Part shown: one piece after another, positions 24,958 through 27,754 of the stretch
Layout: the number at the start of each line of letters is the position of its first letter
Numbering within the stretch: the first letter of the stretch is position 1
Assembly (NCBI RefSeq): GCF_000619805.1
Contig: NZ_JHUV01000010.1
Coordinates: forward strand, 184,579 to 248,578
Direction: 5' to 3'
DNA from: Sulfurihydrogenibium subterraneum DSM 15120
GTDB lineage: Bacteria; Aquificota; Aquificia; Aquificales; Hydrogenothermaceae
DNA length: 64,000 nt
Translations under genes and position numbers: made by a program
The notes under the pieces: generated by a model
What the model was told of the DNA's origin: nothing
Database searches by the model: none
What the model saw: only the letters and a program-made list of their open reading frames with translations

Positions 24958-25494
24958 TTGAACAAATTAGAGCAGATTTTTGAAAGGATTTTATGGGAAT
25001 CAAGGCTAATAGTTGTATTTTCTGTTATAGCTTCAATTTTGGCATCTTTTACATTAGTTGTAATAGGAACTTACGACATTTTACTTATTTTTAAAGAACT
25101 TTTTCACGCTTTTTCAGACCAAGAAGTATACGAACAGTTTCATAAAGATGCAATTACTCACATTATAAGTGCGATAGATGCATATTTAATATCCACAGTT
25201 TTACTTATTTTTGGAATAGGACTTTATGAGCTTTTTGTAAGTAAAATTGACTACGCAGAAAAAGATACAAGGTCTTCTAAAATATTAATTGTACACTCGT
25301 TAGACCAGCTTAAAGACAAATTAGCTAAAGTAATAGTTATGGTTTTAATCGTTACGTTTTTTAAACACGCGGTTAAATACAGTTATGAAGAAGTATTAAA
25401 CTTGCTATATCTTGGAATTGGAATATTTTTAATAGCGTTGGCTATATACTTATTAGCTAAATCCCACGAAGCTCAAAAAAGTGAGGAGCATTAA
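24958..25494 (+). CDS. UPF0114 (YqhA) family membrane protein
   Basis: A 178-residue inner-membrane protein with three or four hydrophobic segments (about 17-42, 75-100, 120-140, 148-168). The N-terminus FERILWESRLIVVFSVIASI is the family signature. The start is TTG at 24958 with GGAGG seven bases upstream. The function of the family is unknown. It lies 2 nt before copA. Confidence 0.8.
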   Translation: MNKLEQIFERILWESRLIVVFSVIASILASFTLVVIGTYDILLIFKELFHAFSDQEVYEQFHKDAITHIISAIDAYLISTVLLIFGIGLYELFVSKIDYAEKDTRSSKILIVHSLDQLKDKLAKVIVMVLIVTFFKHAVKYSYEEVLNLLYLGIGIFLIALAIYLLAKSHEAQKSEEH

Positions 25495-25496
25495 AT

Positions 25497-25844
25497 ATGA
25501 AAGATTTAACTGTTTTACTGACTTCTCTAACTATAATATCAGGGATAAGCTGGTTTTTTTTCTCAAAAGATAAAAAGAAAGAAGAGGAAAATCAAGAATC
25601 AGGAGAATTAGAAAAGCTTGAAGTTAACATATCTGGAATGCATTGTGCTGGATGTGCAGCTGGAATAGAAGCTACTTTAAAATTAGTCAGTGGGATAAAA
25701 TCTGCTACCGTTAACTTTGCTACTTCTAAGGGAGAATTTCTATACGACCCATCAAAGATAAAAAAAGAACAGATAATAGAAAAAATAAAAGAGTTAGGAT
25801 ACGATGCATCTCTTGATTTAGAAAGCTTTGAAAAAAAAAGTTAG
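25497..25844 (+). CDS. Short frame product: membrane-anchored HMA copper-binding domain
   Basis: If no frameshift occurs, translation ends at TAG 25842-25844 and yields 115 residues. These are one N-terminal membrane segment (about 4-22), a charged linker and a complete HMA domain with Cys50/Cys53. E. coli makes a soluble CopA(Z) chaperone from copA by programmed frameshifting; this product would be a tethered analogue. Whether it accumulates is not known. Confidence 0.5.
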   Translation: MKDLTVLLTSLTIISGISWFFFSKDKKKEEENQESGELEKLEVNISGMHCAGCAAGIEATLKLVSGIKSATVNFATSKGEFLYDPSKIKKEQIIEKIKELGYDASLDLESFEKKS

Positions 25845-27754
25845 AAGAGATTTCATCTCTTAAAAAAAGAGTTTTAATTTCTATTCCTCTCTTTGTAATT
25901 GTAGTTTTATCTATGTTTTTCCACTTCTCTTTTTCAAATTATATACAATTTCTGTTAGCTTCTATTATACAGTTTTATGGTGGTTATGAATTTTATAAAT
26001 CCTCTTTAAAGTCTTTAAAAAATAGAATAGCTGATATGAACCTTCTTATTACTATTGGTACTTTTTCTGCGTACTTTTACTCTGTAGCTGTTTTGTTTTT
26101 TAAGGATTTGTTTCCAGCTGAAATGAGACATCTTTACTTTGAGGGATCTTCTGCTATTATTACATTTGTTTTAATCGGTAGATATTTGGAGCTGAAAACA
26201 AGGCAGTCTGCAACAGAGTTTATGAAAAAACTGTTATCTTTAAAACCAGATAAAGCAATAAAATTGGTAGATGGAAAAGAAGAGGTTGTAGATGCTATAT
26301 CTATTAAAAAAGATGATATCGTAATAGTAAGACCTGGAGATAAGATACCTGTTGACGCAGTTATTATAGAAGGACAGACTGAGGTTGACCAATCTGTTTT
26401 AACAGGAGAGTCTAAACTTGTTTATAAAAAGATAGGAGATACAGTTTTAAGTGGAAGTATAAATAAATCTGGACTGATTAAGATAAAAGCTATAAAAGAT
26501 GCAAAGGACAGTGTTTTAAATCAGATAATAAAACTGCTGTTAGATGCCCAGTCTAAAAAACCACAGATAGGTAAACTTGCAGATAGAATAACTACTTACT
26601 TTGTCCCTGCTGTTTTAATTATATCAATTATAGTTTTTGATATTTGGTACTTTTTAGGTTATCCACTTAACTTTTCTTTAACAGCTGCAATTTCTGTTTT
26701 AGTTATAGCCTGTCCATGTGCTTTAGGGCTTGCAACTCCTATAACCATTGTAAACGTTGTTGGAAGAGGTGCAAAAGAAGGGCTTCTTTTTAAAGAACCT
26801 GAAGTTATAGAAAAATCAGAAAAAATAGATTATGTAATCTTTGACAAAACAGGAACATTAACAGAAGGAAGAATGAAAGTAGAAGACTACATAGTCAAAG
26901 ACTTTCTACCTGTGTTTGTATCTTTAGAAAAAGGTATAAACCATCCCGTTGCTCAAAGTATTTTACAGTTCCCAGTAGAGTATGTAGATATTGAAGATAA
27001 ACAGATAGTAATTGGTAAAGGTGTTGTGGGAGTTTACAAAGGTAGTAAAGTTATTATGTGTAATAAAAAATTTTTAGAGGAGATGAACATTCAATTAGAA
27101 AAAGAATTTGAAGAATTTTACTTAAAAAATAAAGAAAAAGGAAATACAGTTATATTTGGCGTTTTAGATGGTAAAGTTTACGGAGCTTTTTCAATATCTG
27201 ATAGTATAAGACCAGAAAGTAAAGAAGTTGTAGAAAAATTAAAAAACAAAGGCATAAAAGTTGTAATGCTGACTGGGGACAATCAAAAGGTTGCAGAAAA
27301 AGTAGCTAAAGAAGTAGGTATTGAAGAGTTTTATTATGATTTAACTCCACTTGACAAGTATAACTTTATAAAAGACTTAAAAGAGAAAGGCTTTATTGTT
27401 GTATTTGTAGGAGATGGAATCAACGACGCTCCATCTATGGTAGAAAGTGATATAGGAATTGCAGTTGAGACAGCTTCAGATTTAGCAAAAGAATCAGGAA
27501 GTATAATACTACTAAAAAGTGATTTAAGAGGCGTAATAAAAGCTATAAACTTATGTCAAAAAGGCTTAAAAACTATAAAACAAAATCTTTTCTGGGCATA
27601 CATTTACAACATAATAGGCATTCCTATAGCTGGAGGATTGTTATATCCATTTTTTGGCATTCTTTTAAACCCAATGTATGCAGGACTTGCAATGAGTTTT
27701 AGCTCTATAACGGTAGTCCTAAACGCTTTAAAATTAAGATACATCTATATCTAA
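25497..27754 (+). CDS. copA: Copper-translocating P1B-type ATPase, two frames joined by a -1 shift at A9
   Basis: Reading frame one (25497-25844) gives an N-terminal hydrophobic segment (about 4-22) and an HMA domain with GMHCAGC (Cys50, Cys53). Frame two, open upstream of its first ATG (25913) back to the A run at 25831-25839, encodes the rest. It has transmembrane helices, the phosphatase loop TGESKL, membrane motif ACPCALGLATP, phosphorylation motif FDKTGTLTEG and hinge GDGINDAP. A -1 shift (or one extra A) joins them as a 752-residue protein, a normal CopA length. The 613-residue frame alone would lack most of the first helix after the HMA domain. Programmed shifting, a real mutation or a sequence error are the three options; the hairpin next to the run favours the first. 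Confidence 0.85.
25831..25861 (+). promoter_or_regulatory. Candidate programmed frameshift site: A9 plus hairpin
   Basis: Nine A residues at 25831-25839 place the zero-frame codons AAA AAA after an A, a -1 slippery heptamer A AAA AAA. Five bases later AAGAGAT (25845-25851) and ATCTCTT (25855-25861) form a perfect 7-bp stem with a TTC loop, in the spacing range of known stimulators. The zero-frame stop TAG lies in the spacer. Transcriptional slippage to A10 would give the same joined product. Confidence 0.6.

Follow-up and report, generated by a model that had tools for sequence, protein, structure and literature searches.

A run of nine adenines splits copA in the Hydrogenothermaceae and may yield both a copper pump and a short HMA protein with a predicted membrane anchor by slippage

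In E. coli, the zero frame of the copper ATPase gene copA encodes the long pump and a -1 shift yields the 70-residue protein CopA(Z), a finding of Meydan 2017 that was confirmed by Drees 2017, as recounted in passages of PMC9548414 and PMC5009743. The same organism is described in a passage of PMC5009743 as being without a separate copper chaperone gene. In dnaX of Thermus thermophilus, according to extracts of PMC5009743 and PMC1088944, transcriptional slippage takes place at a run of nine As (A9). Here we describe a copA gene of Sulfurihydrogenibium subterraneum and its family, the Hydrogenothermaceae, in which two reading frames meet at such a run. On the evidence of sequence comparison, programmed slippage at A9, most likely by RNA polymerase, would probably give a short HMA protein with a predicted anchor in addition to the full pump.

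The window, i.e. the whole stretch of 64,000 nucleotides that was analysed, sits on a contig of the 1.61-Mb genome. In it, the two frames of copA meet at A9 (25831-25839, forward strand), the zero frame encoding a predicted membrane anchor and an HMA domain and the -1 frame encoding the ATPase (Table 1). An earlier sequence-only reading had let the HMA frame end at the TAG at 25842 and had found the ATPase frame open back to the run, and these coordinates were confirmed. The ATPase frame is open from the TGA at 25829-25831 to a stop ending at 27754; because it is closed upstream at this TGA, the overlap of the frames is confined to A9 and the zero-frame stop. A conceptual -1 shift at the run joins 114 zero-frame residues to 638 residues in -1, giving the single CopA of 752 residues that had been proposed. 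A UPF0114 membrane-protein gene (24958-25494) ends two bases upstream of copA, and a relative occurs in the examined upstream stretch of 14 of the 31 copA loci described below.

Table 1. Features of the copA locus, with positions in the window.
Feature	Position	Strand	Basis or remark
GAGGAG, Shine-Dalgarno-like site of the copA start	25483..25488	+	sequence
Zero-frame ORF, predicted membrane anchor and HMA domain, 115 aa	25497..25844	+	short product
Predicted N-terminal transmembrane helix, residues 2-22	25500..25562	+	hydropathy at 31/31 loci; AlphaFold2 helix, pLDDT ~60
HMA domain with GMHCAGC metal-binding motif, Cys 50 and Cys 53	25623..25805	+	PF00403; Foldseek matches
Upstream TGA that limits the ATPase frame; A9 begins with its third base	25829..25831	+	
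A9 run, predicted slippage site; zero frame reads GAA AAA AAA AGT, G on both sides	25831..25839	+	
Copper P-type ATPase, -1 frame, 638 aa	25838..27754	+	TIGR01511
Zero-frame stop TAG, end of the short product	25842..25844	+	
7-bp hairpin; not conserved, probably outside the system	25845..25861	+	found in 1/31 loci
First ATG in the ATPase frame, ~24 codons after the run, within the hydrophobic segment assigned to the first helix	25913..25915	+	

The ATPase scores 578.3 bits against TIGR01511 (cut-off 397), which places it among the copper-translocating P-type ATPases, and it is also similar to solved CopA chains. The genome holds a second gene of the copper-ATPase family (L046, G000:C16:2745-4532), which reaches 470 bits against the same cut-off of 397, is open over 717 codons and had no HMA match in the genome search. 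Because of this second gene, copper export may not depend on the split copA alone.

We searched 41 Hydrogenothermaceae genomes, HMA search included, and found both copA pieces in 31 of them, which span eight of the ten genera listed for the family. In 30 of these 31 species copA is split into two frames at A9. Each of the 30 loci carries exactly GAAAAAAAAAG, with the run flanked by G and set in one codon phase, GAA AAA AAA AGN. Run lengths over the 31 loci were nine (30 loci) and eight (one locus), and ten As occurred at none. The ATPase is open in the -1 frame at 29 of the 30 A9 loci, at one of them (L073) only to the contig end, and at the thirtieth (L044) it is open for 40 codons before other damage sets in. 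This last locus (G030:C37), with an intact A9 and many stops in the ATPase, comes from a genome listed at 55% completeness and may be a pseudogene or reflect poor assembly. The sole copA with eight As (L068, G003:C196) continues its ATPase in +1 over 199 codons, at which point the examined stretch ends; because its genome is listed with 7% contamination and about 320 contigs, the A8 may be either a real change or an assembly error.

Relatives with ten As and a single open frame were looked for, and one intact copA frame was found at 0/31 loci. The split is also seen in genomes of one or two contigs (G034, G036, G016 and G019). A pseudogene or a sequencing error was rejected on the grounds that none of the 31 loci, those in few-contig genomes included, has one intact frame; the split copA is not a sequencing error. 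No copA N-terminus was found in 10 of the 41 genomes. Nine of these ten have no HMA match, several of the nine being incomplete, and G011 and G026 carry the C-terminal piece of a close ATPase; the tenth (G004) has two HMA matches, in frames of 102 and 181 codons. One locus with a C-terminal piece only (L045) was left out of all tables, L002-L005, whose contigs equal those of L019, L022, L023 and L027 in length, were treated as repeats of these and counted once, and the codon statistics refer to 29 loci, with L044 (damaged ATPase) and L068 (A8) left out. Locus counts are not independent, because the species share kinship.

For comparison, 11 loci from outside the family were examined, four of which (L008, L011, L013 and L015) are without the N-terminal part of the ATPase and two (L007 and L014) without an HMA match. 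All five with a detected HMA (L006, L009, L010, L012 and L054) are HMA-ATPase fusions in frame, and on this basis a frameshifted copA was rejected for the outside loci examined. Since these five outside copper ATPases are fused, the split copA looks, from its sequence distribution, to be derived.

The short product had been suggested to carry an N-terminal membrane anchor, and the prediction extends to the family: hydropathy places an anchor at 31/31 loci, the hydrophobic segment mostly ending in ISWFFF or IGWFFF, and the HMA motif is present at all 31 as well. A search of 5.8 billion proteins returned 72 short homologues, 71 of which end in EKKS or EKKR plus at most five residues, matching the prediction from A9. 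An alignment of 26 of these 72 showed S10, I17, W19, F20 and F21 to be invariant. The AlphaFold2 model from these 26 homologues consists of a helix at residues 2-22 (pLDDT about 60) followed by a ferredoxin-like HMA fold (pLDDT about 90), and Foldseek matched the HMA model to CopZ (6ff2) and to the metal-binding domains of CopA and ATP7B. The HMA domain scores 66.3 bits with PF00403 (residues 43-103), and the NCBIfam cut-offs for CopZ were missed, the best CopZ model giving 61.5 against 95 bits. By the positive-inside rule, the HMA domain is expected on the cytosolic side. In the window's genome the copA HMA is the sole one detected and, since exactly one HMA was found in 29 of the 32 family genomes having any HMA match, the short product is, as far as domain searches tell, the one candidate for an HMA-type chaperone in most of these genomes.

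The run is conserved codon by codon. In the codon alignment, GAA, AAA, AAA and AAG are each invariant at 29/29 loci, whereas among the control columns uniform AAA was found in 0/6 other invariant Lys columns and uniform GAA in 0/4 invariant Glu columns; with a looser control (at least 22 Lys per column), three other columns of 22-27 Lys each are all AAA. Parsimony on the protein tree (total length 7.2) assigned zero third-position changes to the four run codons, 4-7 to each of the other nine Glu columns (at least 25 Glu) and 1-8 to 18 of the other 19 Lys columns, with zero in the remaining one. Compared with the control columns, the invariant run codons therefore speak for selection, beyond inheritance alone. 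For the Lys that follows the run, AAG is used at 29/29 loci, the fraction of AAG being at most 0.44 in all 30 other Lys columns, and this constant AAG caps the run at nine. Within an otherwise variable linker, E-K-K-K shows no variation, and therefore the two As that lie outside the ribosomal heptamer are kept as well; the flanking Glu and Lys may be kept for protein reasons.

The zero-frame stop, whose conservation in relatives the sequence-only reading had counted as a check on its proposal, is indeed kept within three codons at all 29 intact loci. It follows one (25 loci), two (three loci) or three (one locus) sense codons past AAA AAA, and the chance of so close a zero-frame stop at a single locus is 0.22 for at most one codon and 0.40 for at most three. 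The next Leu is encoded by TTA or CTA in 24 of 25 cases, the highest share of 33 Leu columns (next 0.86), and this column shows one change on the tree, the second lowest of 25 columns; TTA or CTA at this position thereby preserves the stop of the zero frame. With a residue other than Leu, or with the single CTC, that stop is still at most three codons away. A +1-frame stop lies within nine codons after the run at 29/29 loci (single-locus chance 0.57).

The ATPase could in principle be translated alone, by reinitiation or from an internal start, as the second of two ordinary overlapping genes; the frames do meet at the run, and databases list the short piece as a separate protein. We regard this as very improbable. 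Over the first ten codons that follow the run, the ATPase frame contains no ATG, GTG or TTG at any of the 30 loci other than L068, and at 29 of these 30 the first one lies at least 18 codons past it. The exception, L027, has a TTG at codon 11, at the very beginning of the first hydrophobic helix, which puts the first such codon at least 11 codons past the run at 30/30 loci. The other starts fall in or after the first helix, so that most of them would cut or lose it. No start position is common to all 30 ATPase frames, and an independent ATPase start was rejected for want of a conserved start codon (ATG, GTG or TTG). Moreover, overlapping genes would leave the invariant A9 codons unexplained.

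A run of nine As also splits a second gene of this genome. One of its 18 A9 runs ends a 299-codon frame with a poly(A)-polymerase head and RNA-binding domains; this poly(A)-polymerase/tRNA-nucleotidyltransferase-like gene (L164:278-1707, G000:C10:72877 onward) lies outside the window. Matches at E <= 1e-20 occur in 39 of the 41 family genomes, a few being perhaps paralogues, and 30 loci were examined. A9 with the C-terminal part in -1 is present at 24 of them; three have A10 in frame and three are fused without such a run. At these 24 loci a T precedes A9, whose first A is the last base of its codon. The unshifted product would be the catalytic head alone. The gene may be a second recoded one. 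Its state changes between species, whereas an in-frame copA was seen at 0/31 loci; A10 can therefore arise and persist in the family, which makes this gene an internal control for the 0/31 of copA. It is conceivable, if somewhat short of an even bet, that nine-A runs are a lineage-wide recoding element, with polymerase slippage setting the product ratio of at least two unrelated genes, copA and the poly(A)-polymerase/tRNA-nucleotidyltransferase gene. For dnaX, which had matches in 41 genomes, the 30 loci examined (L084-L113) carry A-runs of 7-9 at shifting positions, some of them A9 near the C-terminus; as no A-run is conserved, A9 recoding shared with dnaX was rejected.

Homopolymers mutate easily, the second gene is A10 and in frame at 3/30 loci and one copA has A8, all of which would suit a phase-variable gene, its DNA toggled by replication slippage between A9 (off) and A10 (on). 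We nevertheless give phase variation hardly any credence for copA. No on/off variation in length was seen among the 31 species, none of which has A10, and all but one of the 72 short homologues end as A9 predicts. In addition, no close fused relative was found among the 5.8 billion proteins, searched for proteins of 0.55-1.75 times 752 residues that bear the anchor-HMA part. The search gave 12 longer matches. The first is 39% identical over 70% of the anchor-HMA part, and the highest identity, 58%, extends over 50% of it; by this measure none of the 12 is a close relative.

In AT-rich genomes, poly(A) tracts are known to allow rescue of a frozen frameshift by low-level slippage, and copA might be such a frameshift, with a useless short protein. 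The second A9 gene could be a case of this kind, and the explanation overlaps either slippage mechanism, so that its odds and theirs are not exclusive. For copA we consider it improbable: the HMA motif and the anchor are kept at 31/31 loci, the stop is kept by codon choice, and the copA HMA is the only HMA detected in the genome. A10 has never been seen for copA, yet it is present for the second gene.

A hairpin with a perfect 7-bp stem (25845-25861) had been put forward as part of the signal. It is real in the window, where about 0.02 such stems are expected per 20 start positions, but it is not kept in relatives, being absent at the other 30 copA loci. Because the window itself is the only one of 31 loci to have it, the hairpin is unsupported as a signal and was rejected as a stimulator. 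Hence the proposal of the sequence-only reading is supported as to the frame switch at A9, which held family-wide (30/31), and unsupported as to the hairpin. In pseudoknot-free folding, the 60 nt downstream of A9 came out slightly more stable on average than mononucleotide shuffles (mean z -1.16, with 7/31 below -2), and their structures differ; no conserved downstream stem was found after A9 among the 31 loci. Nor was an SD-like stimulator found upstream of the run, the mean duplex energy there being weaker (-1.45) than elsewhere in coding positions of the same genes (-2.36). In E. coli copA, recoding involves a downstream stimulatory RNA structure, for which no conserved counterpart was found at the 31 loci.

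On both strands of the 1.61-Mb genome, 18 A9 runs stand against 316 A8 runs (ratio 0.057), while for shorter runs in the window the ratios of successive lengths fall only from 0.55 to 0.23. As described in an extract of PMC1088944, nine As are slippage-prone and eight are not, and replication slippage may add to the deficit of A9. Of the 18 A9 runs, ten sit well within one open frame, 18 or more codons from either end, although one of the ten (L114) may precede its gene's start; A9 is therefore tolerated in ordinary genes.

Ribosomes could also generate both products, through a -1 frameshift on A AAA AAA of the kind that E. coli copA and dnaX employ. This is a serious rival, if the less likely one. 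The heptamer is in register at 30/30 A9 loci, so that each would allow a ribosomal -1 shift, and tRNA-Lys(UUU) is the only Lys tRNA among all 33 tRNA matches in the genome, which would permit ribosomal slippage. Thermus, by comparison, has two lysine tRNAs according to a passage of PMC5009743, and passages of PMC9548414 and PMC5009743 describe ribosomal frameshifting for E. coli copA. We favour RNA polymerase, since conservation spans nine As and the G cap and thus exceeds the seven positions of the heptamer, since there is neither a conserved stem nor an SD-like site, since A9 is sharply rarer than shorter runs, and since nine As also interrupt an unrelated second gene, where the run has a different codon phase and different neighbouring bases. 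Polymerase slippage is therefore probably the better mechanism.

Under polymerase slippage, faithfully copied A9 transcripts would be read to the TAG two bases past the run and specify the 115-residue HMA protein with its predicted anchor, the equivalent of a CopZ encoded within copA itself. Addition of one A by RNA polymerase would create A10 transcripts, and these would encode the 752-residue CopA, in which anchor and HMA domain precede the ATPase. If no slippage took place, the short protein would be the sole product. We infer that slippage occurs, that RNA polymerase is its agent and that both products work. The preference for polymerase slippage, together with a polarity that is probably opposite to that of E. 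coli copA, concerns points on which the earlier reading had not decided.

Among the literature matches listed (titles and abstract beginnings), none describes an A9-split copA, and the main text of Antonov 2013 (PMC3711429) contains no words beginning ATPase, copper or nucleotidyltransferase. If the proposal is true, two distant lineages would have come to the same solution, a pump and a chaperone from one copper gene, with different slippage signals and opposite polarity, and in the family the small protein would, by prediction, be attached to the membrane next to the pump. A full-length version of the family's pump was not found among 5.8 billion proteins. The run, held at nine and G-capped family-wide, would offer a natural test of the limits of A-run slippage in vivo.

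The closest described system is E. coli copA, in which, as is proposed for the family, a frame switch lets a single copper ATPase gene supply both a pump and a short protein of HMA type, as far as the passages cited at the outset describe it. The polarity is reversed, however: in the family the zero frame encodes the short product and the long pump would need the shift. Family copA further differs in its A9 site, in having no conserved stem and in the predicted anchor on the short product, and the single HMA per genome parallels the situation of E. coli, which the passage of PMC5009743 describes as lacking a chaperone gene. The short product resembles CopZ chaperones in its HMA fold and CxxC motif and differs from them in being encoded as the 5' part of copA and in its N-terminal predicted helix. 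Thermus dnaX, as those extracts describe it, shares the run of nine As and has stops near it in the other frames; family copA has such stops too, at distances that chance would often give at one locus. Thermus dnaX is a different gene, in which slippage leads to the shorter product, whereas in family copA slippage would be needed for the longer one. In this last respect family copA is like mxiE of Shigella flexneri, where, according to an extract of PMC1088944, slippage is also needed for the longer protein, although the run there consists of Us and the gene is unrelated.
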